From: a virus | Length of the DNA: 64,000 bases | IMG/VR virus record: IMGVR_UViG_3300027801_002517 | Coordinates: 93,370 to 157,369 of that record | Direction: 5' to 3' (one strand) | Part shown: positions 7,620 to 64,000 of the stretch, piece by piece | How the letters are laid out: each line of letters starts with the position of its first letter | How positions within the stretch are numbered: the stretch's first letter is position 1 | Notes under the pieces: generated by a model | The model's input: only the letters and a program-made list of their open reading frames with translations | The model's database searches: none | Told to the model about the DNA's origin: nothing | Program-made: the position numbers and the translations under genes

Positions 7620-7630
7620 AACTCCTTTAA

Positions 7631-8826: not shown

Positions 8827-8874
8827 TATGTACCCCCAAGTGTTAAAAAATGATTTACACTTGGTTTATACACT

Positions 8875-9108: not shown

Positions 9109-9125
9109 TATAAAACCTAAAACAA

Positions 9126-9197
9126 TGGGAATGCCCAGATTCGAACTGGAATCAAATGTTTAGAAGACATTTATGTTATCCGTTACACTACATTCCC
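9126..9197 (-). tRNA. tRNA-Arg (anticodon TCT)
   Basis: Acceptor GGGAATG/CATTCCC, discriminator A, anticodon stem AATGT/ACATT with loop CTTCTAA, T loop TTCGAAT. It decodes AGA, a common Arg codon in this AT-rich genome. CCA is not encoded. Confidence 0.9.
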
Positions 9198-9236
9198 CAA
9201 TTAATATTATAGTTGAGTCATTGGTAATGTGAAGGG

Positions 9237-35146: not shown

Positions 35147-35796
35147 TGTATGAATTTCTAAATGATATACATAGCTACGGTGTAAATACCAAAACTAGAG
35201 AAATTTATATCAATTCTTTTATGTCCTCCAATGAAGAAGATCCCGGTGTAGATTTTAGAATGGCTACACAACTAATTAAAAATATCAACTACTTAGAATC
35301 ATTAAATGATAAGCCAATTTTAATACATATGTATTCAATAGGTGGTGATTGGGGTGCAGGAATGGCTATTTATGATGCTATAAATGCTTGTACTTCTTTT
35401 ATTACAATGGTTGCATATTCTCATGCGGAATCCATGAGTAGCATTATACTGCAATCTGCTGATTTTAGAGTAATGACTCCATATTCTTACTTTATGTCTC
35501 ACTATGGCTCAAGTGCTTATGAAGGTCATTATTTAAATGCACAAGCAAATGCTAAGTTTGATAAGAGGTGTTGCGATATAATGGTAGATATTTATTCAAA
35601 ATATCTTATTAAGTCTAAATTCTTTAAAGAAAACTATGAAGATGCAACACAAGAAAAAGCCAAAAATTATATTTTAAGAAAAATGAAGAATGGTGATTGG
35701 TATTTAGATGCAGATGAATGTTTATATTTCGGTTTTTGTGATGCATTACTTGGTGACAAAAAAGCTAAAGACATTGTGAGTTTAAGAAATGGTTGA
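35146..35796 (+). CDS. ClpP-like serine protease
   Basis: 216 residues with the ClpP/crotonase-type fold: PILIHMYSIGGDWGAGMAIY, then HAESMSSII with nucleophile Ser near residue 96, and YFMSHYGS with His about 119. The third residue is probably Asp in WYLDADE. Phage ClpP-like proteins often act as capsid maturation proteases. Here a separate prohead protease-scaffold exists (39855), so this may have another target. It overlaps the ERCC4 gene start and the terminase start region. Confidence 0.8.
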   Translation: MYEFLNDIHSYGVNTKTREIYINSFMSSNEEDPGVDFRMATQLIKNINYLESLNDKPILIHMYSIGGDWGAGMAIYDAINACTSFITMVAYSHAESMSSIILQSADFRVMTPYSYFMSHYGSSAYEGHYLNAQANAKFDKRCCDIMVDIYSKYLIKSKFFKENYEDATQEKAKNYILRKMKNGDWYLDADECLYFGFCDALLGDKKAKDIVSLRNG

Positions 35797-41851: not shown

Positions 41852-42859
41852 ATGTCATTTACTGAAAGACCAAGTGATGAATTTATTTCATTGCTTCGGA
41901 AAGCTGGCGATAGTGATCAAAACATCGCTATTGCAGCACAAAGAGAATTTGCTAAAGCATTGGAACTGCCTCTTCGTAAGGGAGTTTTGGCTGGCGATAT
42001 TCTTGGGAATATTTTCGAAGTAACCACAGTAGAATCTGGTGGAACAACTGAGTATCCACTCGACCTTATCTCTCCTGGACTTGAAGGTGAGCATATTGCT
42101 TACACTAATCCAGGTAATGGTAGAGTTCCTGAGCGTAGCGTAGAAGGTGACTATGTTGCGATTCCAACTTACAGTATCACAAGTTCTATCGACTTCTTGC
42201 TTCGATATGCTCGTGAAGCTCGTTGGGATATCGCTGCTCGTGCTATGCAGGTTATGGAAGCGGGCTTTACCAAGAAGATGAACGATGATGGTTGGCACAC
42301 AATGCTTGCGGCTGGTGTTGACAGAAACATCCTCGTATACGATGGTGATGCTACTGCCGGTATGTTCTCTAAGAGACTGGTATCTTTGATGCAGACTGTT
42401 ATGCGTCGTAATGCTGGCGGAAACACTGGTTCTGCTGGTCGCGGTCGTTTGACAGACCTGTATGTTTCTCCAGAAGCTCTGGAAGATATTCGTAACTGGG
42501 GTCTTGATCAGATTGATGAAGTTACCCGGCGTGAAATCTACAGTGCTTCTGAAGATGGTGCTCCAATTACCCGTGTATTTGGTGTTAATCTACATGATCT
42601 TGATGAACTTGGTGAAGGTCAAGAGTATCAGACATTCTTTACAGGTAGCTTAAGTGGTGCTGTTCAGGCTGCTGACCTTGAACTGGTCGTTGGTTTGGAT
42701 CAGTCATCTAATGACAGCTTTGTAATGCCTGTTCGTCAGACTCTTCAAGTCTTTGAAGATCCTACTCTTCATAGACAGCAGCGAGCTGGATTCTACGGTT
42801 GGGCTGAAATTGGATTTGGTGTCCTTGATAACCGTCGTGTTATCCTTGGCTCCTTCTAA
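41852..42859 (+). CDS. Major capsid protein, HK97-like
   Basis: 335 residues. Position after scaffold and decoration genes, the N-terminal acidic region, and segments such as EYPLDLISPGLEGEHIAYT, SITSSIDFLLRYAREARWD and MPVRQTLQVFEDPTLHRQQR are typical of HK97-fold capsid proteins. AATAGGAGAATTTTAAT precedes the ATG. A strong terminator follows. Codon use suggests high expression. Confidence 0.85.
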   Translation: MSFTERPSDEFISLLRKAGDSDQNIAIAAQREFAKALELPLRKGVLAGDILGNIFEVTTVESGGTTEYPLDLISPGLEGEHIAYTNPGNGRVPERSVEGDYVAIPTYSITSSIDFLLRYAREARWDIAARAMQVMEAGFTKKMNDDGWHTMLAAGVDRNILVYDGDATAGMFSKRLVSLMQTVMRRNAGGNTGSAGRGRLTDLYVSPEALEDIRNWGLDQIDEVTRREIYSASEDGAPITRVFGVNLHDLDELGEGQEYQTFFTGSLSGAVQAADLELVVGLDQSSNDSFVMPVRQTLQVFEDPTLHRQQRAGFYGWAEIGFGVLDNRRVILGSF

Positions 42860-43452: not shown

Positions 43453-46400
43453 ATGATTTTGAGTAAACAGGAGTTCATTAACTCCCTTACTAATTATCTT
43501 CCAGATAATGCCAATCAAGAGATTTCTCCGTTAGATCTTAGAACAGTTATAACAAATTTAGCTGATTCTATTCATCTAATGACCGTATCAAATAGTATTG
43601 ATGCAGATAACGTGGGGACAAAATCTACCAGAACTTCTATTCTCGGAGAACAAGCTCTTGGTAAGTTAGATTTAGCTGGCAGGTCAACTTCAGATAATTC
43701 CGTTTTTGGTTACAATGCCTTATATGGAAATTATGACGGAACTCATAATACGGCTATTGGTTCCCAATCAATTAGTTGTAATGTTTACGGAGATCATAAT
43801 GTTGGAGTAGGAGTCAGTGCTCTTGGTGGTAATACTACAGGTTCTGGCAATATAGGTATTGGTAACTATACTTTACATAGAGGCAGAACTGGAAGTTTTA
43901 ATATTGCAATAGGTCATGCTGCTGGTAATTACATTGGTGAAGCTGACAGTTATAAATTTTATGTTGGTGCCATTCCTATTGAGCAAGATGAAGATTGTGT
44001 AGTTGACACAACATCTCGTCTTCCTTTAATGTATGGTAATTTAGAGAATAATCGTTTAGCTGTAAATACAAATGGTTTACATGATTTTGGAAATTTTCAA
44101 GTTGCTGGAGATGCCTCTCCATCTGTAAATGCCTCTACAAACTTAGGTCATGGCTCTAAACATTGGAAAATGGCTTATATTTCTAGTGGTATTTCTTATC
44201 CTAATTCTGGAACACTTACTATTTTTAGTGATGCACCTAAAGGAGCAGGTTTTCCAGATCAATACAATCTTACTGTTAGACAGCATTTCGACGGCAATGG
44301 AAATATTGGATTTGGCACTAATGCCCCATCTGGTGATCACGGTTTAATTACTGTAGCTGGAAACATAGTACCGTCTAAGAGTGGCGTTTATTCTTTAGGT
44401 CATCCTTCTTTACCTTGGGATGGACACTTTAATGATGTTACGATTAGTGGGCAATTTTACGCTAACGATGTTACATATAACACGATAGGTGAATGCTTAT
44501 ATGAATGTAAAACATTACACTTAGGCTCAAGTGGGTTATGCGATGAGGGAGATGGATTTCATAATAGTGCTGTGTGTGGTTATTTAGCTGATGCCGCTCT
44601 TGAGGGTGCTGGGTTTGAAATACATGCTAGTGGTTCTGATTATGTTCGTGATTATAGGCTTATTTATAAACAGCCAGATGTTTCAATACAATCAGATGCA
44701 TTGTTAGCTGATAATTCTTTCTCTAGATCTCATTTTGAATCTAACATTAGTTTAAGTGTTGCGGAAGGTATGCACATAAGAACACAGAGAGTGCTTGGTA
44801 GAGATCAGACAAGTATTATTAATGAAAGTGGATACAATGGATTGATTATTGCAACTGATAAAAGTTTATCAATTGCGTCTGGTTCATATATGACTTTTGG
44901 TCAAGTCAACAATGCCTCTGGAAATTATCCTGGTAGAGGAAATGTTTCATTCTTTGCTGCTTCTGGTGATAATACATATGATTTAGCAATTGCCAGTGTT
45001 AATTCTGGTTCTTTAGATAATACCTCTTTATCTAATGCTGTGCGTGTTGGTTTAGATTTCACTACTGCTGTTGCAGATACTAACAGATCCAGATTTAGTT
45101 TAAGGCAATATAATTTTGGTCATCCTGATTATGATAGATTTGTAATTGGTTCTGAAGGGGGCAAATATAGAGAGCATGACCATACCAGAGTGTTTGAACC
45201 AATTACTATTGCTAAGTCTGGTATGTATGTTGGTATTTCTAATTATGAAAGAACAGAAGGTTCTGCCCCAGAAATGCCTCAAGCTCATCTGCATGTTCAA
45301 GGTGCCAATAATGGTCCGTTTGCAGCTAATACTGTTGTTAGAATTGGTACTCGTACTGGCGACACAAGTAAGGATAGTATTTTTGAATTAACTGGGAATG
45401 GTCCCGAAGGTGCTTCTGGTTTACGTGTCTCTTATGATACTTCTACAGATTATATTGATTTTTCAACAATTGCTACAGATTCTAATCACTTTGCTACTAC
45501 AAGTGGTTTTATGTCTGTCACAAATAATAATTATGTTGGTATTGGTTCCACTATAGTTGGAACTACTAGAAAATTCACACCAATTGAGCCTTTAACAATC
45601 AATCATTTTGATTCTGGTGCCAGCGGCACAATTGCTATGAAAGAGCAAGAGAAAAATCCGGGAAATACTGCTGATTATGGAAAAATTTACGTTAAACCTA
45701 AATCTGGAACAGGTCAAACTCAGGCATTGTTTTTCTTGGATGATGCTGGAAATGAATTTGACTTAGTATCTAATATTATTGATAACACCAGTACTGTATT
45801 TACAGATGAATATAGAAATACTTTTGCGGGTTCTGGTACACCTAATAGCCTTCCAGTCAGTTCAAATAACCCAGATAATGCTGGTTATGGTTCCGAGTCA
45901 TTAAATAGTATCAGTTCTTCTTCTGGCAATACTGTTGTTGGTAATAGATCATTAAATAAAATGACTACTGGTGATCTCAATACTATTGTTGGTAACGATA
46001 ATCTGCGATATCAAAGTGGAGGTATGAACAACAATGTCATAGTTGGTCAGCACAACCTCGATAGCGGTAACAGCTCTTCTTATAACAATGTCATTATTGG
46101 TAATAATAATTTCAATAGTATTGATACTGCAGCAGATAATTCAATTATTATTGGTAATAGTGTAGCGACAAATGGAGCCGATTGGTCTGATAAATTATTG
46201 ATTGGCTATGGTGCTGACCCATTAATTTCAGGTCAATTGACAGGTTCTAAGAGTCTAACTATTAATGAAGCAGATTTTTATGTGACAAATGGTAATATTG
46301 TAGCGGGTGGTAATATTGTAGCGGGTGGTAATATTGCATCAAGTGGTAATATTACAACAAATGGTGATTTTATTATACAAGATAATGATAAATCTATTGA

Positions 46401-47841
46401 ATATAATATCAAACCACAAACATTAAGTACCGTTGATTATCTTAATACTGAAATAAAAGATACCTTTAATAGTAGTGTGGCTAGTGTTGTTCATAGATTA
46501 GTATTTACCACTTCTAATAACACAACTGGTGTTTTAGTAGAAAATGACTTTAGAAATGGTACTATGTCTAATAGTGCTTCATATGCTTCTACTGCAAATC
46601 CCACGGTTACTATTAATGGAGATATAAATCTTAGAGGTAAAATTAATTATTCTGATGGCACTTCTGCTTCTAGCTTTATCGGTCAAAATGTTAGTGCTGG
46701 TTCTGGTATATCTGCATCATATCCTAATGCTAATACTGTTAAATTTGATTTAGATATTTTAGAATTACAAAATGTATCTGATGTTTCTGTAAATACATTA
46801 AGCACAAAAAGTTATGTTCCTGTGCATGTTGATGGTGGTACAGCACTTGGTGGCAATGTTTTAGGAAGGATGTCATTTACTGAGCTTACAGATTTTGTTG
46901 GCAGTGGTTACGCATCTGTTGTGGGCAATGAGAATCATTTCTTTGCTCCTCCTCAAGATGAGAAAAATATTAGTCAAGTTCAAAATAGCGGTAGTGTGTT
47001 CATTGGACCTGGAGTTGGCCATTTATCCAGTGGCTGGAAGCACTCTGTTATGATTGGTACGAATGCTGGTTATGGTGCCTCAGCAAATAATAGTAATTTA
47101 TCTATAGATACAGCATCTACATTTATTGGATATAATGCTGGACGAGAAGCGGATAACATTTCCAATGGTTTATTTATTGGCACAAATGCTGGTGATTATG
47201 CTAGAGGAGCTAATGGATCAATATTTATAGGGCAAAATGCTGGTTCGTATTCGGAAAATACTGAATCTATTGGTATTGGTAAAAATGCTTTAAGAGGTTC
47301 TGTTGATAGTAACGATGCTAGTGCTGGTAATATTGAAATTGTAGCAAATCTACAAGATAACCAAAGGTTGTTATACAATAAAGGTTCTTATTCTAATCTT
47401 CTGAATATTCAAAATACAATCGCTGGAGATACATCTCTAAGAAGAATTTCTATTGGAGATACTGTCATTGGTCCTGATGCTGTCCTCTCTGTAAGAAAAG
47501 ACAACACAATCACAGGACACTCCACTACAGATTATATTCAAACTTGGTGGCATAATGACACAAAAGTTGCTCATATCGATTGTAGTGGTAATTTTGAAAG
47601 TCTTGATTATCCACAAGTGATAGAGGGATTCACCACCACTCAAATCCTGGGACCAACTCAATATACCGCACCAGTTAGTGGTAAAATTGTAAAAAGAAAT
47701 TCTGATTTCTCAACTGGCTCAGAAACTTGGGTTGTAAATAGAGATTCCACTTTAGCTATAGATCAAGATTCATTTGTTGTAGCTTATCTGGTTAATGGTG
47801 AATATCGACCGATACACGTTGCTTGTTCTGGTTCAATATAA
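43453..47841 (+). CDS. Very long fibre protein with Gly/Asn collagen-like and head-domain repeats
   Basis: 1,462 residues. Blocks such as NTAIGSQSI, NVGVGVSALGG, GNIGIGNYTL and NIAIGHAAG are left-handed beta-roll repeats of trimeric fibres and adhesins. Similar sets recur near residues 820-900 and 1190-1280. Between them are beta sandwich domains. It is a candidate long tail fibre or head fibre and presumably binds the host. No chaperone domain is seen at the end. AAGGACTAGATAA precedes the ATG. Confidence 0.8.
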   Translation: MILSKQEFINSLTNYLPDNANQEISPLDLRTVITNLADSIHLMTVSNSIDADNVGTKSTRTSILGEQALGKLDLAGRSTSDNSVFGYNALYGNYDGTHNTAIGSQSISCNVYGDHNVGVGVSALGGNTTGSGNIGIGNYTLHRGRTGSFNIAIGHAAGNYIGEADSYKFYVGAIPIEQDEDCVVDTTSRLPLMYGNLENNRLAVNTNGLHDFGNFQVAGDASPSVNASTNLGHGSKHWKMAYISSGISYPNSGTLTIFSDAPKGAGFPDQYNLTVRQHFDGNGNIGFGTNAPSGDHGLITVAGNIVPSKSGVYSLGHPSLPWDGHFNDVTISGQFYANDVTYNTIGECLYECKTLHLGSSGLCDEGDGFHNSAVCGYLADAALEGAGFEIHASGSDYVRDYRLIYKQPDVSIQSDALLADNSFSRSHFESNISLSVAEGMHIRTQRVLGRDQTSIINESGYNGLIIATDKSLSIASGSYMTFGQVNNASGNYPGRGNVSFFAASGDNTYDLAIASVNSGSLDNTSLSNAVRVGLDFTTAVADTNRSRFSLRQYNFGHPDYDRFVIGSEGGKYREHDHTRVFEPITIAKSGMYVGISNYERTEGSAPEMPQAHLHVQGANNGPFAANTVVRIGTRTGDTSKDSIFELTGNGPEGASGLRVSYDTSTDYIDFSTIATDSNHFATTSGFMSVTNNNYVGIGSTIVGTTRKFTPIEPLTINHFDSGASGTIAMKEQEKNPGNTADYGKIYVKPKSGTGQTQALFFLDDAGNEFDLVSNIIDNTSTVFTDEYRNTFAGSGTPNSLPVSSNNPDNAGYGSESLNSISSSSGNTVVGNRSLNKMTTGDLNTIVGNDNLRYQSGGMNNNVIVGQHNLDSGNSSSYNNVIIGNNNFNSIDTAADNSIIIGNSVATNGADWSDKLLIGYGADPLISGQLTGSKSLTINEADFYVTNGNIVAGGNIVAGGNIASSGNITTNGDFIIQDNDKSIEYNIKPQTLSTVDYLNTEIKDTFNSSVASVVHRLVFTTSNNTTGVLVENDFRNGTMSNSASYASTANPTVTINGDINLRGKINYSDGTSASSFIGQNVSAGSGISASYPNANTVKFDLDILELQNVSDVSVNTLSTKSYVPVHVDGGTALGGNVLGRMSFTELTDFVGSGYASVVGNENHFFAPPQDEKNISQVQNSGSVFIGPGVGHLSSGWKHSVMIGTNAGYGASANNSNLSIDTASTFIGYNAGREADNISNGLFIGTNAGDYARGANGSIFIGQNAGSYSENTESIGIGKNALRGSVDSNDASAGNIEIVANLQDNQRLLYNKGSYSNLLNIQNTIAGDTSLRRISIGDTVIGPDAVLSVRKDNTITGHSTTDYIQTWWHNDTKVAHIDCSGNFESLDYPQVIEGFTTTQILGPTQYTAPVSGKIVKRNSDFSTGSETWVVNRDSTLAIDQDSFVVAYLVNGEYRPIHVACSGSI

Positions 47842-47853: not shown

Positions 47854-50800
47854 ATGCCAACTGTTACCGGGGTGTATCATCTCAGGCCCATCTCTAATAT
47901 CACCTCTAATATGGATGATTGTCCATTTGGTGCTATTGATGATAACATGTTTAAGGGATTTAATGCTGATAGTGAATCGGCTTTTGCTACTGAATATTGT
48001 TTGAATGATGGTGCAAAATCTGCATTCACCAGTGGAGTTCATAGGGTTAGTGATATTCCAGCTAATCCAGGGGCGGTTGTTAGTGGTGTCACACTTTGGT
48101 CTTATTCTTCAGGTATTAGTACTGGTAGTACTGGTAGTACTAGTATTTTTAAAGGTGGTGGCAGTGGGGTAGACCATCTGGTTTCAGGAAGTGTAAAGTT
48201 AGATAATCAGTGGTATCATGATGCATATGGTCCCGCTATGGCTACATCTGGTGCTCATGATGGTGCTTGGGCTGCATATAAATTCCCTGAATATGAAGGT
48301 TCTGGATTAAGAGATTCTGCCGTTTCTAATATGGCAATAAACTTAGTTTCTCCACCCCAACTTGAAGATGATGAGTTTCGAATATATGCTGCATATTTAG
48401 AAGTTACTTGGACTCAAGAAGTTGAGTTCGATCATTTCTTATGTAATTGTCCCGAGAAGACTGGTATTTTAGTGCCAAACTTTGATGGTACTACTGCTCA
48501 TAATACTTCTCCCAATACTGATGGTGATACTAATTTCGTCATAGTTGGTGGACCATCTCATCGATATGCTGCGATGAATAATGGTGTATTAACTCCCGAT
48601 GATAGTGATTATATTCGGCGGGCGGCACAGCAAGGTGATGGTCCAAGCACTGTAACGGCATTTTTTGGTTTTGAAGATATGCCATTTGATTTTGATATAT
48701 TGAGTTCTGGATCTTTAAGAATTAGAGATAAAGGGAAGTCGGACTTGGATGTTCCGAATGAAGGTTTAAAATATCAATTTTTTAAGATTGATGAAACAAC
48801 TCCTTTAACAAATGAGATTATACACTCAGGCCAAAAGCCTCCTGGTGATACAGATATTTTTGGTAGTTTTACTAATAGATTAATTAATTTCAATTTAACT
48901 GGAGATATTGATAAAACTTCTTGGGATAATGCATTACTTAAAGTCACCCACTTTGATCCTCCCGGAACACCAGGTGAAGATAAAGATTACAGAATCTCTG
49001 AAATGGAACTATTAGTAGGTTATATCCGTCAGCCAATACCTATTCCATTTCCTTTATCATCTGGTGCTTGTTGTTCTTATGCTGCTAAATTTGATGATAA
49101 TTTACTTACTCCTTGTGCAAATTCATTACCAGTTTACCCAATTCTTACAGAGACGAATACGGCAAGTGGTTTAAAAATTGCAAATAGTTTACCTGTTGCC
49201 AGCATTAATAATCATATTGCTACTAATGGTTCTGGTAACAGAGTTGTATTCTCTCGGCATTTAACCAATTCTACTTCTGATTGGCCGAGTGGCACTTACG
49301 CACAAGTATTTCAAGAAAATGCTTCTTCTTGGGATATACTTGGAACACCTATAAACAGTGGTTCTTATTTGACAGAGACATTAACTGATCACTTAGAAAT
49401 TGTATCTGTTGATATGAATACAAGTGGTAATATGTTTGCGGTTTGCTGGAAAGAGAACCAATATATAGACTATAATAGTTGTGATGAGACACCCATACCT
49501 TTAAATGATGATTATCATGTTGGTGTTTATTATTGGTCTGATTCAGATTCCAACTGGAAAAGACGTGGTAATTATATAAGTTCACCCATGAGTTCTTATG
49601 TTTATGCGAATGGCAATGGAGAATTAGTTAGAAATCCAGGTTCTTTTGGTGATCAAATCAAGATGACTTCATCGGCTGATCGCATATTTATAAAAAATAA
49701 TCCAGCAGATCCTAATAGTCAGCAAAGTGTAGAAGCTTATAATTGGGATGGTACTCAATGGAATTATTATAGTACAATAGAAGTTGGTAGATTAGATTAT
49801 AGCGATAGATATACTGATGGTATTTTTGACGTGCCTTTATCTGAATATCCTGTTGCCCCATCTGGTGATTATTGTCCTGCTCCAATTACTTCGGGTATCT
49901 ATAATTATACTTTAGCTTTTGAAAGTATCATTGATGGCAATCCAGATCCAGCTAATGAGTACAAACTTATACGATCTAATTTTGCAAGCGATGTCTCCAT
50001 TGATTCTAATGATCAATATATTATTATAGCCCATGCAAATGCCTATATACACAGATCAAATGACGGTGTAATCAAACTATTAAAAAAAATTGGATCTTCT
50101 TATTCTATACTTAATTCTTTTTTTGGTGAATTAATTTACCAAGATTCCAATAATAGTGATTTTCACGGTCCAACAGAATCTGCTAAGTTTGGATTTTCTG
50201 CTGACATATCTTCTGATGGCAAATTTATTATAGGTGGTGCTCCTGCGTATAATAGCAACAGAGGATATGTAAAAATACATTACCAAAAATCTGTACAAGG
50301 TTTAGATGAAAGTTGGCCACACCTTGGTCAAGAAATTATTGGAAACTATTCTTATTCTGCTGGGCGGTTTGGTTTTGATGTTGCTATAGCCACTGGTAAA
50401 TCTAGTGAAACATCGCTTGTATCTTATAGCCCAGTTGTAGTTATTGGTGCTCCATATGTAGACCAATCTGGCACAGATGCTGGAATGATAGCAATCTATA
50501 GATACAAAGATAAAACAGCAGCTACAGACCCTTGGGAGCTTGTTCAGGAAATTCAAGGTCCAATAGCTAATGGTAAATTTGGGTATTCAGTCGCAATAGA
50601 TGATCTTGGTGAAACTATAGCAGTTGGTATGCCACATACGACAGAAAAAGGTCGTGTTTATATTTATAAATACAATTCTACTACAGATCAGTATGAAATT
50701 AAAAAATCAATTTTAGAAGACTATCCTTATGAGTCTAGTTTTATTGAGGGTGACTGCGATGGAGATCTGTTTGGATTTTCTGTAGATATTAATGGCAATG

Positions 50801-51612
50801 ATGGAAACTATCTTATAGCTGGGGCACCCAATTTTAGTACTGGTATTGTCCCTCAAGCCAATCGTGGGTATGTTAAATCATTCATATATAAAAATAATAA
50901 ATGGGTTACCGTACAATCTGATATTGATTCAAGTAAAAGCGATGTATTTATTGGGGGTCATACAGGCAGACGATTAGGATATGCGGTATCCATATCAAAT
51001 GATGGTACTAGAATTGCGTTTAGTGCTTTAAATGCTAGTACTGGTAAAAGTTTTGTTCAAGTTTTTGATTTAATACAACCCGATGTTTCTTTACCCAAGT
51101 GGTATTATCCAGTTAATAGGACTGGTACAAATTCTGGATATATTACGGATGGAACTAGTGATTACGGAACTAATATATCTTTAGGTGGCGATAAAATAGT
51201 TATCTCCTCAGATGAGTTAGGAATTGATATTTTAGATTTAGTAAGAACTGATTCTAGTGTTACCATTTTAGCCAATCCTCATTTGCACGGTCCTTATGCG
51301 GATGTATTTAATAGTTCATCTGACACTAAGTTATCTACTTCTCTCAAGAAGAAAAGTAAAACCGCATATTGTTTAGCATTGCGTAAGCAGGGTTTTGATT
51401 CTGCGGGCACAAAATATTCATTTTTTGTTCCAGGTCAGAAATGGTTTTTAGATCCAGATTTATTAATTCAATATCCAGACGGTATATACAAATCAATTGG
51501 ACCTTCTGTCGGTACTTCTGAATTTGAAGAGGGTTGGGCTGAAATTTCTAATGGCGAAGTCATAAAGGGTGGCACACTTATGAGTTATGACTATCCTGCA
51601 GCAAATAAGTAA
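47854..51612 (+). CDS. Large virion protein with FG-GAP-like beta-propeller repeats
   Basis: 1,252 residues. The second half holds repeats of the FG-GAP/integrin propeller type: FGFSADISSDGKFIIGGAPA, FGYSVAIDDLGETIAVGMP, FGFSVDINGNDGNYLIAGAP and LGYAVSISNDGTRIAFSAL. The first half is a Gly/Ser-rich sandwich with GACCSYAAK. Such propellers bind glycans or proteins, so a receptor-binding role is likely. AATAAGGACGAATT precedes the ATG. Confidence 0.75.
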   Translation: MPTVTGVYHLRPISNITSNMDDCPFGAIDDNMFKGFNADSESAFATEYCLNDGAKSAFTSGVHRVSDIPANPGAVVSGVTLWSYSSGISTGSTGSTSIFKGGGSGVDHLVSGSVKLDNQWYHDAYGPAMATSGAHDGAWAAYKFPEYEGSGLRDSAVSNMAINLVSPPQLEDDEFRIYAAYLEVTWTQEVEFDHFLCNCPEKTGILVPNFDGTTAHNTSPNTDGDTNFVIVGGPSHRYAAMNNGVLTPDDSDYIRRAAQQGDGPSTVTAFFGFEDMPFDFDILSSGSLRIRDKGKSDLDVPNEGLKYQFFKIDETTPLTNEIIHSGQKPPGDTDIFGSFTNRLINFNLTGDIDKTSWDNALLKVTHFDPPGTPGEDKDYRISEMELLVGYIRQPIPIPFPLSSGACCSYAAKFDDNLLTPCANSLPVYPILTETNTASGLKIANSLPVASINNHIATNGSGNRVVFSRHLTNSTSDWPSGTYAQVFQENASSWDILGTPINSGSYLTETLTDHLEIVSVDMNTSGNMFAVCWKENQYIDYNSCDETPIPLNDDYHVGVYYWSDSDSNWKRRGNYISSPMSSYVYANGNGELVRNPGSFGDQIKMTSSADRIFIKNNPADPNSQQSVEAYNWDGTQWNYYSTIEVGRLDYSDRYTDGIFDVPLSEYPVAPSGDYCPAPITSGIYNYTLAFESIIDGNPDPANEYKLIRSNFASDVSIDSNDQYIIIAHANAYIHRSNDGVIKLLKKIGSSYSILNSFFGELIYQDSNNSDFHGPTESAKFGFSADISSDGKFIIGGAPAYNSNRGYVKIHYQKSVQGLDESWPHLGQEIIGNYSYSAGRFGFDVAIATGKSSETSLVSYSPVVVIGAPYVDQSGTDAGMIAIYRYKDKTAATDPWELVQEIQGPIANGKFGYSVAIDDLGETIAVGMPHTTEKGRVYIYKYNSTTDQYEIKKSILEDYPYESSFIEGDCDGDLFGFSVDINGNDGNYLIAGAPNFSTGIVPQANRGYVKSFIYKNNKWVTVQSDIDSSKSDVFIGGHTGRRLGYAVSISNDGTRIAFSALNASTGKSFVQVFDLIQPDVSLPKWYYPVNRTGTNSGYITDGTSDYGTNISLGGDKIVISSDELGIDILDLVRTDSSVTILANPHLHGPYADVFNSSSDTKLSTSLKKKSKTAYCLALRKQGFDSAGTKYSFFVPGQKWFLDPDLLIQYPDGIYKSIGPSVGTSEFEEGWAEISNGEVIKGGTLMSYDYPAANK

Positions 51613-51621: not shown

Positions 51622-53241
51622 ATGGTTACACCCCTATTTACTAGGCAAACATTCAATTTTGATATAAATGATAGTGGCGATTTACTCGTTGTGGGATTGC
51701 CATATGCCGATATTGCATCTGGAACAGCACCTAATAGACAAGCACAAAGACAAGAGAATGGTGCTTTTATAACATTCACTGATAGACCATCTGGTGATTC
51801 AGTAACTGGCTCAGGGTTTATTTCTTCGTCATATTTTAGAAATAATTTAGATACGGATGTTTCTGGTATTTCTGGTAGTTCATTTGGTCATTCTGTTTCT
51901 TTAAATGGTAAAGGTGATAGATTAGCTGTCATTGCAGATCCAAACATATTTGGTTCTGGATTATTTCATGTGTTTGAGTCTGGATCTAATAATCTGGGAA
52001 GTTGTTTATATCCTAATTCGTGGGTTGATATTAGTGTCTCAGGCGTTTCAGGTGTTCGTATTCCAAGTTCTCACTCTGCAATACAACTTGATTCATCTGG
52101 CAATTCATTAATTACACACAGAAGTAAGTTTCAAAATTTTGATTCTTATGTATCAATTGATAAGATATATAGATATGAATACAAGTATGATACTTGCTCA
52201 AGTGATTATACTTGGTATAGAACTTCTATAATAGCTAAACACGAAAATGACACATATGATCGTATTGGCTTAGGTTCACAAGCAGCATTTTCTGATAATG
52301 GTTATAGAGTTGCCGCTACATATAATGTTTCGACACTTGAAAATGGTATTGGTACTTTTCATCAATACGGAGATGTATTTCTTGTTTATAATGAAACTGA
52401 TACTGGAACGTCTTTTACTGGTTTTGAGGGTAAACCTACATTTGGTTGTGAAGACTGGGTTTATGAGGGTGATTGTTTAACGAGACCATATTCCGTTTAC
52501 ACTTCTGGTCAATTATGCACTAATGTTACATGTCTGTCTGCTCTTCCTACTACTACAAGTACTTCCACATCATTACCTCCGGGTGTTGATCCTAATCCTA
52601 CATCAACTACGAATCCTCCCACAACAACTACTTCGACTACTATTGATCCTACGACTGAAAATCCAAGTGATCCTAAAGGAGCGTGTTGTTATACAAACGA
52701 TACTCAGACAAATCTATGTCAATATGTCACGGAGGCTAAATGTGCTGAAATAGGTAACGCTCCAGATGCACTTGGGAGTTTTACTTGGCAGAAAGGTGTA
52801 GCATGTTATCCCGATCCTTGTAATAATTGTGACTGTCCTGATAGTTTTAGTGGTCCAGTATTTTATCAGAATTTAAATACCATTGAATCGAATAAGTGCA
52901 ATTTTAATACTACTATTACTGCCTTAGCGGTTACAGAAACTACTGCTTATAAAATATATGAATTTGATGGAGTTTTAGAGTGTGGAGATCATTTTTATTA
53001 TAAAGCAAGATGTTTAAGGGGTGTTCCAGCTCCTGCCGAAGACGGAGATGCTCATAAGTGGGAAATTTTACAGGTACATATGGACTGTTTTAATAATTTT
53101 AAATGGAGACGTAGTACACAAGCTGATAAAGAACTTTTTAGTACATTCAATCATCATGGAACATGTACAGATCCTCCAACTTTTACTGTTACGCACACTT
53201 CAGATGGATATGATTATTGTAATTGTTGTGATAGTAAGTAG
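51622..53241 (+). CDS. FG-GAP-like virion protein with mucin-like linker and Cys-rich tail
   Basis: 539 residues. It begins as a continuation of the propeller style (FDINDSGDLLVVGLPYADIA, FGHSVSLNGKGDRLAVI). At about residues 305-350 a Thr/Ser/Pro-rich linker (LPTTTSTSTSLPPGVDP and more) resembles mucin O-glycosylation sites. A Cys-rich end follows (GACCYTND, TEAKCAEIG, ACYPDPCNNCDC), as in some bacterial surface proteins. The next gene encodes a glycosyltransferase. TAAGGGAATAAA precedes the ATG. Confidence 0.75.
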   Translation: MVTPLFTRQTFNFDINDSGDLLVVGLPYADIASGTAPNRQAQRQENGAFITFTDRPSGDSVTGSGFISSSYFRNNLDTDVSGISGSSFGHSVSLNGKGDRLAVIADPNIFGSGLFHVFESGSNNLGSCLYPNSWVDISVSGVSGVRIPSSHSAIQLDSSGNSLITHRSKFQNFDSYVSIDKIYRYEYKYDTCSSDYTWYRTSIIAKHENDTYDRIGLGSQAAFSDNGYRVAATYNVSTLENGIGTFHQYGDVFLVYNETDTGTSFTGFEGKPTFGCEDWVYEGDCLTRPYSVYTSGQLCTNVTCLSALPTTTSTSTSLPPGVDPNPTSTTNPPTTTTSTTIDPTTENPSDPKGACCYTNDTQTNLCQYVTEAKCAEIGNAPDALGSFTWQKGVACYPDPCNNCDCPDSFSGPVFYQNLNTIESNKCNFNTTITALAVTETTAYKIYEFDGVLECGDHFYYKARCLRGVPAPAEDGDAHKWEILQVHMDCFNNFKWRRSTQADKELFSTFNHHGTCTDPPTFTVTHTSDGYDYCNCCDSK

Positions 53242-53250
53242 GCAAAACTT

Positions 53251-54279
53251 ATGAAACTAACAATAGGAATGGCACACCACGATGATTTTCATGGTGCTTA
53301 TTTTACAATCCAAGATATAAGGAAAGAGTTATCTTTCAATGGTAGAGACGATATATTAAATAATATTGAATTTCTTGTTGTGGACAATAATCCTCATAGT
53401 AAGCATGGTCAAGCATTAAGTAGTTTTTTACGAAACCAGGTGCCTAATAGTAAGTATATTAGACATAGTTCTACTGTTGGTACTTCCGTATCAAGAAATA
53501 AGATAGTCGAAGAAGCAAGTGGCGATTTTGTATTAATTATGGATTGCCATGTTTTACTATGTCCATCAACTTATGTAATAACTAAGTTATTTAGATTTTT
53601 AGATAAGAATCCAAATACTAAAGATTTATATTCAGGGCCGCTTGTTTATGATAACCTCAAGAACAATTCAACACATTATAATGACGGTTGGGGAGCAGAG
53701 ATGTGGGGTAAATGGGGTTCTACATTTTCCTGTCAATGCGGTGAAAACTTTTCTTTGAGACAAAGGGGGGATTCTGGAAATTGTGACTATGTTCATCTTC
53801 TCTCGCAAGTTCCGTTAGAAAAGTGTATAAAATGTAATAAAGAATATCCCAAAATATCTTATTTTAGCAATGAAAAAACACTTAAAGATCTTGGCTATTA
53901 TCAACTTGGATTTAAAGATGATCCACCATTTGAGATTTTTGGTCAAGGTTTAGGTTTATTTTTAACAAAAAAAGATACTTGGTTAGGGTTTAACCCGCAC
54001 TGTAGAGGTTTTGGTGGAGAAGAAATTTATATTCATACCAAATACAGAAATTATGGTCGCAAAGCAATCTGTCTGCCTTTCTTAAGATGGCTTCATAGAT
54101 TTACTCGTCCAGATGGTGTTAGTTATCCCCTTACTTTAGAAAACAAAGCAAGAAATTATGTCTTAGAATTTGTCGAGCTTGGTTTAGATTTACAGCCAAT
54201 TTATGATAATTTCCATAGGCTACCAAAAGAAGTTATAGATTCTTTTGTTTATGAAGCAAAAAACATATATCATTCATAA
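53251..54279 (+). CDS. Glycosyltransferase, GT-A fold, polypeptide-GalNAc-transferase-like metal site
   Basis: 342 residues. A GT-A start (IEFLVVDNNPHSKHG), SRNKIVEEASGDFVLIM then DCH (D98-x-H100), a Cys-containing insertion (CQCGEN, CIKCNKE), GFGGEEIYIHTKYRNYG (253-270) and WLHRF with H282. The D-x-H, GGE and late His arrangement is that of polypeptide GalNAc-transferases (GT27), where these residues bind metal and acceptor. Gene order suggests it modifies the Thr-rich linker of the preceding virion protein. Sugar donor unknown. Confidence 0.75.
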   Translation: MKLTIGMAHHDDFHGAYFTIQDIRKELSFNGRDDILNNIEFLVVDNNPHSKHGQALSSFLRNQVPNSKYIRHSSTVGTSVSRNKIVEEASGDFVLIMDCHVLLCPSTYVITKLFRFLDKNPNTKDLYSGPLVYDNLKNNSTHYNDGWGAEMWGKWGSTFSCQCGENFSLRQRGDSGNCDYVHLLSQVPLEKCIKCNKEYPKISYFSNEKTLKDLGYYQLGFKDDPPFEIFGQGLGLFLTKKDTWLGFNPHCRGFGGEEIYIHTKYRNYGRKAICLPFLRWLHRFTRPDGVSYPLTLENKARNYVLEFVELGLDLQPIYDNFHRLPKEVIDSFVYEAKNIYHS

Positions 54280-54291: not shown

Positions 54292-57219
54292 ATGGCTCTT
54301 GTAATATCAGATAGAGTAAAAGAAACATCGGTTACTACTGGTACTGGTACTATTACTTTCAATGGTACGTATGGTGGTTTTCAATCATTCTTAAGTGGCA
54401 TTGGTGATGGTAACACCACTTATTATGCTATTGAAAATGATACATCTTGGGAGGTTGGTATTGGAACATATACTCAATCTTCTAATACATTATCACGAGA
54501 TACTATTTTAAAAAGTTCTGATAGCAACAGTGCTATTTCTCTTAATGGTGTGTCACGAGTTTTTTGCACTTATCCCGCAGATAGAGCAGTTTATTTAGAT
54601 GCTGATGGAAACATTGAATTTACTTCATCTGGAGTTTTTGAGCATATTTCTGTTACTAGTCTTGCACAACTTAGTAATGTAAACACGAGTGGCTTGCTTA
54701 CAGTCAGTGGTGATTTACTATTCAAGCCTAATGATCAAAACAATAATATATTTACTATGCAGAGAAGTTCTTCTGGTAATTTTTTCCATGCCTATGTTGA
54801 CGATACTTATGATAGAACTCTTGCTTTACATACAGATGGAGGCACATCTCCTACTTGGACATTAGGTTTAAAATCAAATCCAAACTCTGTGGTTGAAGCT
54901 CCAAACCATGCTTATATTTATGGTGTAGATGGTGATATGGGCATTGTTGCCAATTCACATAATGATGTGACAATTTCAAATACGACTGGATTTAACGTAA
55001 AACATAAAAATTCTACTATTCTAAAATCAAGCACTGTTACTGGCGTACACATAGATTCTGTTGCGACGGCTTACCCCGCTCTGACGATTAATGGAGGGGC
55101 AGCTCTCGCTACTAATATCCAAGAGTGGACAACATCTGCTGGTAGTGTATTATCTGTTGTCGATAAAGATGGAAATTTTGGCATTGGAAAAGATAATGCT
55201 GCTTATGAGCTTGATGTTGATGGTAGTGGCAAATTTGGTCAAATATGTTTAACTACTGGTATCATTTTTCCTGACGGTACGGCTCAAACTACTGGGTTTT
55301 CTGGAGTATTTAACTACAGTGCTGATATTGCAAATAATACTGCTTCTGGAGTTTCGGATTCTGGATATTTTGAGCATAGAATTAATACTCTTCCAGGTTC
55401 CATTGATTACTCGTCTCAGATTCTTGCTAATAGCCAGTCTGGAGTTGCTATTTCTGGATGGGCTTTTCAAACAATAATTAATAGTGGTGTAGCAGTTAGT
55501 GGTTGGGCTGGCTCTACAATGTCTATATTAGATACCGCTATAAGCGGTTGGGTTACTGAGACATTCATTACTAGTGATACCAATACTACATATACAGCCG
55601 GTTCTGGTTTAGAATTAGTAGGTACTGTTTTTCATTCTACAGATTCCAATAAAATATTATCTAATAGTGCTAGTGGTGTTGCTATATCTGGCTGGGCATC
55701 TGAAACGATTACAAATAGTGGTGTGGCTGTAAGCGGTTGGGCTGCTTATGGAATTTCTGCTAATACAACAAATATATCTGCAAACACAGCAAATATCACT
55801 CTTAATGATACCGATATTGCTACAAATAGTGCTTCAGGTGTTGCTATATCTGGTTGGGCTGCACAAACAATTACAAATAGCGGTGTCGCTGTGAGTGGAT
55901 GGGCAGCTTATGGGCTTTCCAATAACACAACAAACATATCTACCAATACGGCGAATATTTCTTCTAATAATGTAGATATTTCTGCCAATACCGCTTCAGG
56001 TGTTGCCATTTCTGGTTGGGCTACACAAACAATCATAAACAGCGGAGTTGCCGTAAGTGGCTGGGCAAACGCAACATTTAGTACCAATACTAATGTTGAT
56101 TCTGTTAGTGGTTGGGCAAATAGCACATTTGATACTAAAGCAAACACTGCCTCGATTAGTGGTTATGCAGAAGCAATTGCTGGAGCTGGTGCTAGTTATA
56201 GTTGGTCTATTAGTGATGGTACAGTTGCCGCAGATATTATATCAAATACTCAAACTGTAGTTATTAGTGGTATCAGTGGTATAAATACAGAGTATGTTGC
56301 TGGAGGTAATCTGTTAAAACTTTCGGGTGGTAGTCTTAGTGGTTGGGCGTCAGAAACTATAATTAATAGCGGAGTTGCCGTAAGTGGTTGGGCAAATTCG
56401 ACTATGTCTGCATTAGACACTACTGTGAGTGGTTGGGCAAGTGAAACTATAATTAATAGTGGTGTAGCAGTTAGTGGTTGGGCTAATGGTACATTTAGTA
56501 CAAGTTCTCATGTAAGTAATGTCAGTGGCTGGGCATTACAGACAATAATTAATAGTGGTGTTGCTGTGAGTGGTTGGGCAAACGAAACATTTGATACTAC
56601 ATCTAATACTACTGCAATCAGTGGTTGGGCAAGCGAAACCATCATTAATAGTGGTGTTGCTGTGAGTGGCTGGGCTAATTCTACTATGTCTTCGCTTGAT
56701 ACTGCGATTAGCGGTTGGGCATCAGAAACAATCATAAACAGCGGAGTTGCCGTAAGTGGCTGGGCTAATTCTACATTCATTACCTCAGATACTAATACAA
56801 CTTATACTGGTGGTAGTGGACTAACATTAATTGGAACTGAATTTAATGTTTCGTCTTTAGGTGGTAGTGGATCACTTGAAGGTTTGATCGTTGATAAAGC
56901 TATTAAAAGTATAATCAACACTGAAGCAGATGGTGCAACTATTACATTTGATATGAATGAGGCTAATACTCATATGGCCACATTGGGTGGCAATAGAATA
57001 ATTGCTATCTCTAATGCAGCTTCGGGTCAAAAGTTTATGTTGAGGCTTAAGCAAGATTCTTCTGGTAGTCGTACAGTAACATGGTTTAGCACTATCTATT
57101 GGGCAGAAGGCGGTTCTGCTCCTACTCTTACTACAACTGCTAATAAAGCAGATGTGCTTGGGTTTTTAAGCACTAGCGGCGGATATTATGATGGGTTCGT
57201 GATTGGTCAAAACATATAA
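54292..57219 (+). CDS. Fibre protein with about 20 SGW repeats
   Basis: 975 residues. Residues about 1-120 are a fibre attachment domain (RVKETSVTTGTGTITFNGTY...) also found in the gene at 61582. The middle has some 20 SGWx repeats, mostly NSGVAVSGWAN or SGVAISGWAS, with Asn-rich linkers. The end (ATITFDMNEANTHMATLGGN, VTWFSTIYWAEGG, YYDGFVIGQNI) is a typical fibre tip cap. It is a tail-fibre shaft, probably trimeric. AATAGGAAAATATT precedes the ATG. Confidence 0.8.
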   Translation: MALVISDRVKETSVTTGTGTITFNGTYGGFQSFLSGIGDGNTTYYAIENDTSWEVGIGTYTQSSNTLSRDTILKSSDSNSAISLNGVSRVFCTYPADRAVYLDADGNIEFTSSGVFEHISVTSLAQLSNVNTSGLLTVSGDLLFKPNDQNNNIFTMQRSSSGNFFHAYVDDTYDRTLALHTDGGTSPTWTLGLKSNPNSVVEAPNHAYIYGVDGDMGIVANSHNDVTISNTTGFNVKHKNSTILKSSTVTGVHIDSVATAYPALTINGGAALATNIQEWTTSAGSVLSVVDKDGNFGIGKDNAAYELDVDGSGKFGQICLTTGIIFPDGTAQTTGFSGVFNYSADIANNTASGVSDSGYFEHRINTLPGSIDYSSQILANSQSGVAISGWAFQTIINSGVAVSGWAGSTMSILDTAISGWVTETFITSDTNTTYTAGSGLELVGTVFHSTDSNKILSNSASGVAISGWASETITNSGVAVSGWAAYGISANTTNISANTANITLNDTDIATNSASGVAISGWAAQTITNSGVAVSGWAAYGLSNNTTNISTNTANISSNNVDISANTASGVAISGWATQTIINSGVAVSGWANATFSTNTNVDSVSGWANSTFDTKANTASISGYAEAIAGAGASYSWSISDGTVAADIISNTQTVVISGISGINTEYVAGGNLLKLSGGSLSGWASETIINSGVAVSGWANSTMSALDTTVSGWASETIINSGVAVSGWANGTFSTSSHVSNVSGWALQTIINSGVAVSGWANETFDTTSNTTAISGWASETIINSGVAVSGWANSTMSSLDTAISGWASETIINSGVAVSGWANSTFITSDTNTTYTGGSGLTLIGTEFNVSSLGGSGSLEGLIVDKAIKSIINTEADGATITFDMNEANTHMATLGGNRIIAISNAASGQKFMLRLKQDSSGSRTVTWFSTIYWAEGGSAPTLTTTANKADVLGFLSTSGGYYDGFVIGQNI

Positions 57220-60588: not shown

Positions 60589-61554
60589 ATGGCACCTACA
60601 ATGAGAACTTCTGGCGTTATACTTGGTAATATCGCCGAACAATTAGCTAACAATAATGCGGGTTTGATATCTGCTGAAGATGTTCGTGGTAATATGGAGG
60701 ATATAGCATTCTCGATTAACAGTATTGTAGCCAGTGGTGATACAGATGTTCAATTTCCTTTCTTTAATGATGTGAGATTTAAACATTTAGGGACTCCAGG
60801 GGTTGGTGGTCGTGTTATTGCGGAGTCTGGAATTTTGTTTCCTAATTCACCAAATTCACCAGGAACATTACAGCGAGAAGCATATCCTGGTGCTGGCCAA
60901 ATTGATCATAACGATTTAACTGGTTTAAGTACTGGTGATCCACATACACAGTATGTACCAATTGGCGGTTGGACTACTGCTAATCGGCAAATGACTGGAA
61001 ATCTTGCTCTTGGCAATCAATGGGTTGGTGCTTCTGGTGACAATGGTAGAGGAATTAAATTTGCAGCGTTAGATAATGGAAATAATGAAGTAGATATTTT
61101 AGTGTCTGGTGATTTTGTCTTTGATGACAATTCTAAGATAAGTACCGGGTTTTCTGCTGCTAAAGCATGGTTGAATTTTGATGCCTCTGGAGTTGGTACA
61201 AGTTCCCCGGTTATTAATTCTTGGTATAATGTTAGCGGTATTGCAAAAAATGCTGTTGGTAAATTTACTATTACATTTAATTCTGGGGTTTTCGCTAATA
61301 ATCATTATGTAGCCATTGGTACAAGTAATGCAACAACCACTTCAGGCTCTAAAGAAGACATGGATGTTAATACTGTAGCTTGTGTTCTTAGGCATGGCAA
61401 CGATGATAATGATGGATTAAGAACCTGTACTTTTGTAATTCAAAATGATGCTGGTGAATATGTCGATGGTAAGATTAATGATTTTGTAGCTTATGGATAT
61501 GAACCAAGTGCGATTTCCGGTGCTGTTCCTACTATAGTCGGTTACGGTGGTTAA
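60589..61554 (+). CDS. Fibre-type virion protein (321 aa)
   Basis: N-terminus helical (SAEDVRGNMEDIAFSINSIV), then GRVIAESGILFPNSPN, IDHNDLTGLSTGDPHTQYVP (a common fibre motif LTGLxxGDPHxQY) and a beta-sandwich end (KFTITFNSGVFANNHYVAIG). It probably belongs to a short fibre or baseplate part. AAGGGAGAGTTATA precedes the ATG. Confidence 0.7.
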   Translation: MAPTMRTSGVILGNIAEQLANNNAGLISAEDVRGNMEDIAFSINSIVASGDTDVQFPFFNDVRFKHLGTPGVGGRVIAESGILFPNSPNSPGTLQREAYPGAGQIDHNDLTGLSTGDPHTQYVPIGGWTTANRQMTGNLALGNQWVGASGDNGRGIKFAALDNGNNEVDILVSGDFVFDDNSKISTGFSAAKAWLNFDASGVGTSSPVINSWYNVSGIAKNAVGKFTITFNSGVFANNHYVAIGTSNATTTSGSKEDMDVNTVACVLRHGNDDNDGLRTCTFVIQNDAGEYVDGKINDFVAYGYEPSAISGAVPTIVGYGG

Positions 61555-61581: not shown

Positions 61582-64000
61582 ATGGCTTTTCCAGATACAG
61601 TTTTTCTACATGATAGAATAAAAGAAATTAGTCACTCTACTGGAGCTGGCAATCTCTCGTTGGATGGTGCTGCTACAGGCTTTGGTTCTTTTAGTGGTGT
61701 TTACTCAAGTGGAGATGCTATATTCTATGCGATTACTGATGGTACAAACTATGAGGTTGGTTCTGGTTACTATATAAATGATGGTAGTACTGATTCTATC
61801 GCAAGATTTGCTTTCAATAGTTCTAATAGTAATAATAATGTTATTTTTAATCCTGGCATCAAAGAAGTATTTGTAAGCTATCCTGGAGAATTTGCTTTAT
61901 TCTCTGCTGGTGGAATGGATGGGTTCACCCAGCCAGATGTCAGTGGTATGGCATTTTTTGGTAGTCAGCAGACAGTCGATTATTCTTCTAATGTTATATT
62001 TGATAAAAATAATAACAGAATAGGTATTGTTCAACCTGCCCCTTTATATTCTATTGATATTGGTGGTACTCCTGAAAAATCTTTAATGAGATCTTCTGGG
62101 GTTATTGTTGCAGAGTCTGGAATTATTTTCTCTGGTGTAAGTCCAACTCATACTTCTGCGTATTCAGGTGGTATTCAGTTAGAACCATTTATGAGGAATG
62201 AGTTAGATCCTACAACTGGATCTAATGCCATATTTTCTTTAAGTGGATTAGTTGACCAAAGAATTTTATTGAATACTCAAGTAAAAGGTTCTGTTTTTGC
62301 TGGTCCAGCAAGTGGCTGTATTGGTGCTGGTTGCAGTCCAGATTATCCGACATTTAGATATTTAGCATCGGAAGATATCCCAGATTTATCGCATTTATAT
62401 ACTGAACAGTTTGTTGACGCAGTTGGGAATGTACCGTATCAAGGAGATATCACTTACTATAAAGAGAGTGGTGTTCTCGATCATGATCATTTCTTTACCT
62501 GGGATGCAAGTAACAATCGTATTGGTATTAATAGAACAGATCCAGGTTTTACTTTGGATGTTGATGGTGATGCTTCTATTAGTGGTAATATGTATATTCA
62601 AAGTGATGCTGATATTGAAGGTCATCTTCATGTTAGTGGTAATGTCGTTATCAGTGGCAATCTTGATGTTCAGGGTGATCTAACATATATTGATAGTAGT
62701 ACTGTTACAATTTGGGATAAGCAATTAGAACTTGCTTCTATGAGTGGAACGGCCCTTTATGCAGATTCAGCACTTGATGACGCTGGTATTGTCATTAAGT
62801 CTACAAATTCCGATAAGAAATGGACTTGGCATGATTCTAATGATTCTTGGAGAACAGATGAGGGTGTGGGTGCAAGTGGTCATTTAGAGGTAAGTGGTCA
62901 CGTATCATTCGGTAATGATTTATTGGTAGCTAATACTACTACTGTCAGTGGAAATTTGAATGTAAGTGGTATATCTAACTTTAAGGGAGATGCATATTTC
63001 GTTAATGATATTACTACAAGTGGCAAATTAAATGTAAGTGGTATATCTATTTTCAATGAAGATTCATACTTTACAAGTAACGCTCCAGTTGTAATGAGTG
63101 GTACATTAGGGGTCTCTGGTGCTGTTGATTTTGATTCTACATTAAATGTAGATGGTGTAAGCACTCTTAACAGCACACTTGATGTGGACGGAGCAACGAC
63201 TCTCAACAACATACTTGATGTAGACGGGACGACAGCTCTACATAGTGATTTATCTGTGGGTGGTGATGTCATTGTTAGTGGTAATCTTGATATCCAAGGT
63301 GATGTGACATATATTGATAGCAGTACCGTTACGATTTGGGACAAGCAATTAGAACTTGGTTCTATGAGCGGAACAGCTCTTTATGGAGATTCACAACTTG
63401 ATGATGCTGGGATTGCTATCAAGTCTACAAATTACGATAAAAAATGGACTTGGAGAGATTCCAATGATTCTTGGAGAACAGATGAGGGCATTGGGGCAAG
63501 CGGTCTTTTAGAAGTCAGTGGTCATGCAACACTTGGTAATGACTTATTAGTAACTAATGATGCCACTGTTAGTGGTCTCTTTAATGCTAGTGGAAACTCT
63601 ACTTTTGACAACAATGTATTTGTGAAGGACGATACCTATACCGTTGGTAATGCTACAACCAGTGGAACGCTTAATACCAGTGGCAATGTGTTCTCCAACA
63701 GCGATACCTACACCGCTGGTAATTCTACGACCAGTGGAACGCTTAACACCAGTGGAAATGTATTCTCCAACAGCGATACCTACACCGCTGGTAATTCTAC
63801 GACCAGTGGAACGCTTAATACCAGTGGAAATGTATTCTCCAATAGCGATACCTATACCGTTGGTAATGCTACGACCAGTGGAAATGTATTCTCTCATAGC
63901 GATACCTATACCGTGGGTCATGCGACGACCAGCGGAACGCTTAATACCAGTGGCAATGTGTTCTCCAACAGCGATACCTACACCGCTGGTAATTCTACGA
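61582..64000 (+). CDS. Very long fibre protein, C-terminus beyond the window
   Basis: The frame from the ATG at 61582 has no stop to the edge (over 800 residues). The start (MAFPDTVFLHDRIKEISHST) shares the attachment domain of the gene at 54292. Two copies of a 73-residue block (TYIDSSTVTIWDKQLEL...DSWRTDEG) lie at about 62656-62880 and 63279-63510. Then comes a tandem 24-residue repeat (DTYTVGNATTSGTLNTSGNV). It is a fibre shaft with repeated LNVSG units. AAAGGTAAGATAA precedes the ATG. Confidence 0.85.
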   Translation, partial: MAFPDTVFLHDRIKEISHSTGAGNLSLDGAATGFGSFSGVYSSGDAIFYAITDGTNYEVGSGYYINDGSTDSIARFAFNSSNSNNNVIFNPGIKEVFVSYPGEFALFSAGGMDGFTQPDVSGMAFFGSQQTVDYSSNVIFDKNNNRIGIVQPAPLYSIDIGGTPEKSLMRSSGVIVAESGIIFSGVSPTHTSAYSGGIQLEPFMRNELDPTTGSNAIFSLSGLVDQRILLNTQVKGSVFAGPASGCIGAGCSPDYPTFRYLASEDIPDLSHLYTEQFVDAVGNVPYQGDITYYKESGVLDHDHFFTWDASNNRIGINRTDPGFTLDVDGDASISGNMYIQSDADIEGHLHVSGNVVISGNLDVQGDLTYIDSSTVTIWDKQLELASMSGTALYADSALDDAGIVIKSTNSDKKWTWHDSNDSWRTDEGVGASGHLEVSGHVSFGNDLLVANTTTVSGNLNVSGISNFKGDAYFVNDITTSGKLNVSGISIFNEDSYFTSNAPVVMSGTLGVSGAVDFDSTLNVDGVSTLNSTLDVDGATTLNNILDVDGTTALHSDLSVGGDVIVSGNLDIQGDVTYIDSSTVTIWDKQLELGSMSGTALYGDSQLDDAGIAIKSTNYDKKWTWRDSNDSWRTDEGIGASGLLEVSGHATLGNDLLVTNDATVSGLFNASGNSTFDNNVFVKDDTYTVGNATTSGTLNTSGNVFSNSDTYTAGNSTTSGTLNTSGNVFSNSDTYTAGNSTTSGTLNTSGNVFSNSDTYTVGNATTSGNVFSHSDTYTVGHATTSGTLNTSGNVFSNSDTYTAGNST
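63631..64000 (+). repeat. 72-bp tandem repeat inside the fibre gene
   Basis: Units begin at 63631, 63703, 63775, 63847, 63901 and 63973. All are 72 bp except the fourth (54 bp, an 18-bp deletion). They are nearly identical and keep the frame, encoding DTYTxGNxTTSGTLNTSGNV and FSNS. The array continues past the edge. Confidence 0.9.

Follow-up and report, generated by a model that had tools for sequence, protein, structure and literature searches.

What does a glycosyltransferase (GT) encoded among the structural genes of a phage modify? The question arises in the window analysed here, which makes up the final 64 kb of a virus record 157,369 bases long and in which a run of large plus-strand genes lies downstream of genes with PHROG matches to a head protease (35146-35796), a terminase (35789-37771) and a major head protein (41852-42859, with further head proteins nearby). 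The run, all on the plus strand, includes PHROG matches to virion structural and tail spike proteins (43453-47841), an FG-GAP repeat protein (47854-51612), a putative virion protein of 539 residues (51622-53241), a 342-residue GT-A glycosyltransferase (53251-54279), a 975-residue repeat protein (54292-57219) and a tail-fibre match (60589-61554). The putative virion protein, which we propose as the acceptor, and the GT are separated by 9 nt on a common strand. The initial annotation had placed the GT inside the tail operon; the PHROG matches support a setting among structural genes, whilst we infer the presence of the 51622-53241 product in the virion from gene order, and Pfam and PHROG searches of this protein gave no match. 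Many copies of a repeat of the INSGVAVSGWANSTM / TASGVAISGWASETI type, nearly identical to one another, occur in the 975-residue protein, and an open-reading frame running off the window (61582-64000) carries repeats of ~24 residues (STTSGTLNTSGNVFSNSDTYTAGN). The window also contains a phage-encoded tmRNA gene (6705-6972, minus strand, tag AKTTSFALAA) and, elsewhere, five tRNA genes.

The proposed acceptor consists of an N-terminal part that appears FG-GAP-like by eye, a Thr/Ser/Pro linker and Cys-rich C-terminal modules. A match to beta-bungarotoxin was dismissed as a chance match of Cys residues. The linker, the putative glycosylation region, comprises residues 309-353 (52546-52680, plus strand) and reads PTTTSTSTSLPPGVDPNPTSTTNPPTTTTSTTIDPTTENPSDPKG; 32 of its 45 residues are Thr (16), Ser (6) or Pro (10), whereas 20,000 shuffles of the 539-residue protein yielded at most 28 (mean 18.9). 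The mucin-like stretch originally noticed at about 52545-52680 is thus borne out, and no other Thr/Ser/Pro stretch in the 157-kb record is as strong. The linker is not merely a DNA repeat, since its codons are mixed (ACT 9, ACA 5 and ACG 2, with four Ser codons and four Pro codons), which points to selection on the protein level.

The GT matches PF00535 (43.3 bits against a cut-off of 23.3, E 4.7e-11), as do 69/69 of its relatives, and no signal peptide or membrane segment was seen in it by eye. It has no PHROG match, neither PHROGs nor NCBIfam holds a specific family for it or for the upstream protein, and tblastn of both proteins against 50,697 phage records returned nothing useful. Relatives were collected with a motif scan (GFGGEE, 63 bases, WxHRF), which returned at least 120 viral stretches, every one with a relative. 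In a conservation alignment of 69 sequences, with relatives 38-55% identical to the window GT, the invariant residues are D98, H100, G253-E258, W280, H282, R283, F284 and R286. These define, on the plus strand, a D98-C99-H100 motif (DxH, 53542-53550) proposed as the metal/nucleotide site, of which D98 and H100 are invariant also in 63 bacterial sequences, a GFGGEE motif (residues 253-258, 54007-54024) that may form the acceptor/catalytic loop, and W280-L-H282-R-F (54088-54102), whose late His is the proposed third metal ligand. The Cys insertion recorded in the initial annotation is also present (C161-C195, 53731-53835, plus strand), in the form C161xC163, C178, C192xxC195; most members of the clade to which the GT belongs share it, and it may be a zinc-ribbon-like element. 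An alignment-based model of the GT reached a mean pLDDT of 95.6 and a pTM of 0.93, and a single-sequence AlphaFold model (pLDDT 43.5) was left unused.

GT27 polypeptide GalNAc-transferases (ppGalNAc-Ts) carry out mucin-type O-glycosylation in animals and Toxoplasma. In a Foldseek search of the PDB, the best 50 matches of the GT model were all polypeptide GalNAc-transferases, led by GalNAc-T2 (E 2e-12), with a best TM of 0.59 by query; the unrelated fold that the initial annotation had named as contrary to its proposal did not emerge. Alignment with hhalign places DCH with DSH, GGE with GGE (WGGEQ/WGGEN in GalNAc-Ts) and the late His opposite its GalNAc-T counterpart, in collinear order, albeit with E 3e-4 and a probability of 39.6% against a GT27 profile of three sequences. 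From the GGE Glu (E257) to the late His there are 25 residues in the window GT and in GalNAc-T10 alike, the latter counted in a PDB sequence retrieved with an approximate consensus query, of which only the returned PDB sequences entered the comparison. The motifs thus stand where GT27 enzymes have them, as first suggested from the sequence. The likeness extends to an acceptor rich in Thr, Ser and Pro, which for the phage GT is a proposed one.

The two differ in several respects. GT27 enzymes have a ricin-type lectin domain, of which the window GT is devoid (no Pfam match in it or in 69 relatives), they work in the secretory pathway, where the phage enzyme does not, they read W before GGE where the window GT reads F, and structural alignments of the window GT with GalNAc-Ts show 11-16% identity. 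After GGE stands a Glu that is invariant in the family, against Asn in GT27 and Gln in GalNAc-T10; in GT7-type inverting enzymes the residue at this place is an Asp that acts as the base. Because of this Glu the stereochemistry may be either retaining or inverting, and a GT2/GT7-like inverting reaction, in which E258 might act as the base, is possible, though the nearest solved fold is GT27. With the lectin domain absent, GGEE in place of GGEN and a weak profile score, we do not claim membership of GT27, and we describe the modelled enzyme as GT27-like. Of the mucin-type counterpart originally proposed, the predicted fold and the gene pairing described below stand, whilst membership of GT27 is not supported. 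That the transferred sugar is GalNAc itself we regard as doubtful.

If the GT acts on the linker, the two should recur together. Under a rule of at least 28 Thr/Ser/Pro and at least 12 Thr within 40 residues, a threshold set after seeing the window and used as the one rule for the position, random-neighbour and control-GT comparisons, the gene immediately upstream (-1) of the viral GT is mucin-like in 30/109 cases versus 13/1,108 at other positions (at least 120 loci, neighbours called by a simple ORF finder; Fisher p ~1e-23). The co-occurrence in other phages, which the initial annotation had proposed as a check, is accordingly found, and it is confined in position: at -2, -3, +2 and +3 combined, only 4/313 genes of the at least 120 viral loci are mucin-like. 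After clustering of the GTs at 70% identity, the counts among the matches listed are 18/49 at -1, 1/36 at -2 and 3/40 at +1. Among 48 phage GTs with GWGGED, taken as a control, 0/40 had a mucin-like gene at -1 (p 2e-5 versus the GT family).

Such a pattern might in principle reflect insertion, with GT genes recombining next to genes rich in ACN repeats and no functional link between the two; many of the linkers are simple Thr repeats able to recombine. We regard this as very improbable, as linker sequences differ widely (TTPPY, STSTST, TPTLTST, TEPTVPT), codons in the window linker are mixed, the linker is not always at the 3' end of its gene, and other GT families and random neighbours display no such preference.

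The pairing runs in one direction. Poly-Thr proteins drawn from viral contigs had a member of the GT family in 0/119 loci, and 89 neighbours of such proteins included no GT; a linker needs no adjacent GT, and most phage Thr-rich linkers would either carry no modification or receive it from elsewhere or from enzymes of the host. The GT predicts the linker; the linker does not predict the GT. Roughly 70% of the GT family members are without a strict mucin-like segment at -1. In four viral loci (L034, L077, L087 and L103) a poly-Thr protein is encoded four genes upstream of the GT rather than at -1, and the GT, where complete, has a long C-terminal extension.

A tree of 137 representatives places the window GT in a clade of 27 (SH-aLRT support 99%), of which 17 adjoin a strict linker. 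Amongst the ~22 clade members with a substantial neighbour, 19 have a Thr-rich one, the members lacking a strict linker lie mostly at a contig end or slightly below the mucin threshold, and only L073, L105 and L111 are clearly without a Thr-rich neighbour. Over the whole tree the linker label changes 25 times versus a shuffled mean of 32, which implies that the linker-GT pairing was gained or lost many times. A separate, large phage clade has a different conserved neighbour of 340 residues and no linker, and its substrate may differ.

A further possibility is that the GT glycosylates another part of the virion, such as the Cys-rich modules or other appendage proteins, with the linker a mere flexible spacer. 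Thr-rich linkers are indeed common in viral proteins with no GT nearby, and the three clade members lacking a Thr-rich neighbour would fit such an arrangement, but what the partners of the GT have in common argues against it. With Thr/Ser/Pro stretches masked, 46 partners fall into 26 homology groups (a few were left too short to reveal homology). They range from large phage proteins, through small bacterial ones with RR-type signals, to stand-alone Thr/Ser/Pro proteins, and the groups have nothing in common except the Thr/Ser/Pro segment. In three phages the GT gene is immediately preceded by one for a complete stand-alone mucin-like protein of ~150-165 residues that is almost entirely Thr/Ser/Pro (L061:1693-2142, plus strand; L080:1755-2249 and L096:4164-4640, both minus strand); about half of the residues are common to these proteins, and their C-terminus reads CNKLGF or CKKLGF. 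Partial copies occur in L022 and L069, where the contig end cuts them. On their composition the three complete proteins are candidate phage mucins, in which no plausible target other than the Thr-rich segment can be read from the sequence. Modification of some other virion part is, with these partners in view, improbable.

The family extends beyond phages. In 80 loci from bacterial species genomes, the gene at -1 is mucin-like in 13/72 cases versus 12/877 elsewhere (p ~2e-9), the partners being small proteins with Tat-like signals by eye, as with RRKFVKTVLAASAVTVPVVTSISLGGAAPAFA from Rhodococcus. Within the same protein, 23/63 bacterial GT members match an HprK-related kinase A model and 7/63 match PqqD models; neighbouring genes encode PqqD (12), an uncharacterised nucleotidyltransferase family (8), sulfotransferases and GalE, the last of which adjoins or is fused to some of the GTs and fits a UDP-sugar donor. 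In RiPP pathways PqqD-like proteins act as peptide chaperones. Their presence suggests that the substrate is a polypeptide and is handled in the cytoplasm, in keeping with Tat export after modification. Several loci (L134, L156, L140, L167, L172, L190 and L199, and the Rhodococcus loci L184/L188, where the partner stands beside the GT) combine a GT that is often fused to HprK-related kinase A with PqqD-like proteins and small Tat-like proteins with Thr/Pro-rich tails. At L184, from Rhodococcus erythropolis NBRC 15567, the gene pair lies at 7320-9986 and the putative exported protein has 177 residues. The bacterial GTs are fused to, or lie beside, genes of the NCBIfam HPr-rel-A system (TIGR04352 kinase A, TIGR04353 PqqD-like), which are absent from the phage GT members checked, and the open-access literature gave no link of this system to glycosylation of Thr-rich proteins. 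The bacterial loci may constitute an exported-glycoprotein or RiPP-like system that has gone unrecognised.

The same neighbourhoods bear on a role in DNA hypermodification, for which other phage GTs provide a precedent (Pyle et al. 2024, as cited in PMC12619734). The window GT gene stands among structural genes, its bacterial relatives adjoin genes for exported proteins and peptide chaperones, and its predicted fold matches polypeptide enzymes, all of which render DNA a highly implausible substrate to which we give almost no weight.

Which sugar is supplied may be approached through the other genes of the virus. A GDP-mannose 4,6-dehydratase (33017-34123, plus strand; PHROG 540, E 1.6e-71; PDB 1n7g, E 4.5e-95) is possibly a supplier of a GDP-deoxysugar, and its gene shortly precedes those for packaging and the head. 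Outside the window, at ~42-77 kb of the record (L008, L009: ~42700-77000), a minus-strand sugar cluster encodes two NeuB, a CMP-sugar synthetase-like cytidylyltransferase, two DegT aminotransferases, epimerases, a UDP-glucose/GDP-mannose dehydrogenase and several GTs, a gene content that suggests phage-encoded synthesis of nonulosonic acid. As the virus makes other sugars, other glycan targets exist.

This cluster is compatible with a GT that modifies a surface glycan of the host (O-antigen or capsule conversion) or builds a polysaccharide, its place next to Thr-rich tail proteins marking only a host-attachment gene module. Phage GTs often act on host glycans, and the PHROG matches of a few relatives are GtrB-like. 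The GT2-type PF00535 enzymes concerned (GtrB-like PHROG 22739, and the GWGGED-type, related to GT7) share PF00535 and a GGE-x loop with the window GT family, but have DxD where the latter has DxH; the GWGGED-type control family has no Thr-rich neighbour, and the membrane anchor is not seen in the window GT. A GtrB-like GT of O-antigen conversion was set aside for the window enzyme, which has neither a PHROG match nor, by eye, a membrane segment. A host glycan would also leave unexplained a Thr-rich segment that is found at -1 and rarely at -2, -3, +2 or +3, and the pairing of bacterial relatives with small Tat-like Thr-rich proteins and PqqD; we consider it an unlikely substrate.

Our preferred reading is that the 53251-54279 product is a cytoplasmic polypeptide O-glycosyltransferase modifying the mucin-like segment of its neighbour, which we judge to be likely. 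From the linker, the motifs, the predicted fold and the recurrent linkage, we infer its reaction, acceptor and role as follows. A soluble, cytoplasmic, nucleotide-sugar-dependent enzyme with a ppGalNAc-T-like GT-A fold would, during infection and before assembly, add sugars to Thr/Ser residues of the linker at 52546-52680, and these might be extended by other phage enzymes. Glycosylation would turn the linker into a spacer within a virion appendage that is stiff, hydrated and resistant to proteases. The GT would be a member of a large family, found in phages and bacteria, whose shared task is the O-glycosylation of Thr/Ser/Pro-rich segments; in bacteria the acceptors would be small proteins that receive their sugars in the cytoplasm and are then exported.

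Virion O-glycosylation is known from mycobacteriophages, in which phage GTs are reported to modify the phage's own virion proteins at the C-termini of capsid and tail-tube proteins (Freeman et al. 2023, Cell Host Microbe, PMC10527164, as cited in PMC12363180 and PMC12619734). The target there is not a mucin-like segment of the adjacent gene's protein, unlike the linker proposed here. Homology of the window GT to Che8 gp108, gp109 and gp110 was rejected (hhalign probabilities 0.06-5.5%), the resemblance amounting at most to a short GT-A motif. The open-access literature held nothing on this GT family, on phage mucin-type glycosylation or on the bacterial pairing.

The GalNAc-T-like predicted fold together with the recurrent pairing indicates that phages and bacteria probably have a mucin-type protein glycosylation of their own. 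We lean slightly towards a stronger statement, in which the two share an undescribed mucin-type module, composed of a soluble ppGalNAc-T-like enzyme and a dedicated mucin-like protein, that phages would apply to virion appendages and bacteria to small exported proteins. Virion glycosylation has so far been described mainly in mycobacteriophages, by enzymes non-homologous to the window GT. If our reading is true, glycosylated, mucin-like appendages are present on many aquatic phages, a matter of relevance to their adsorption, stability and recognition, and uncharacterised bacterial loci with an HprK-related kinase, PqqD and a small Thr-rich exported protein would gain a possible function. Should the homology to GT27 prove real, the shared module might shed light on how mucin glycosylation arose in animals. 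The gene pairs could also be simple cytoplasmic tools for mucin-type glycosylation.
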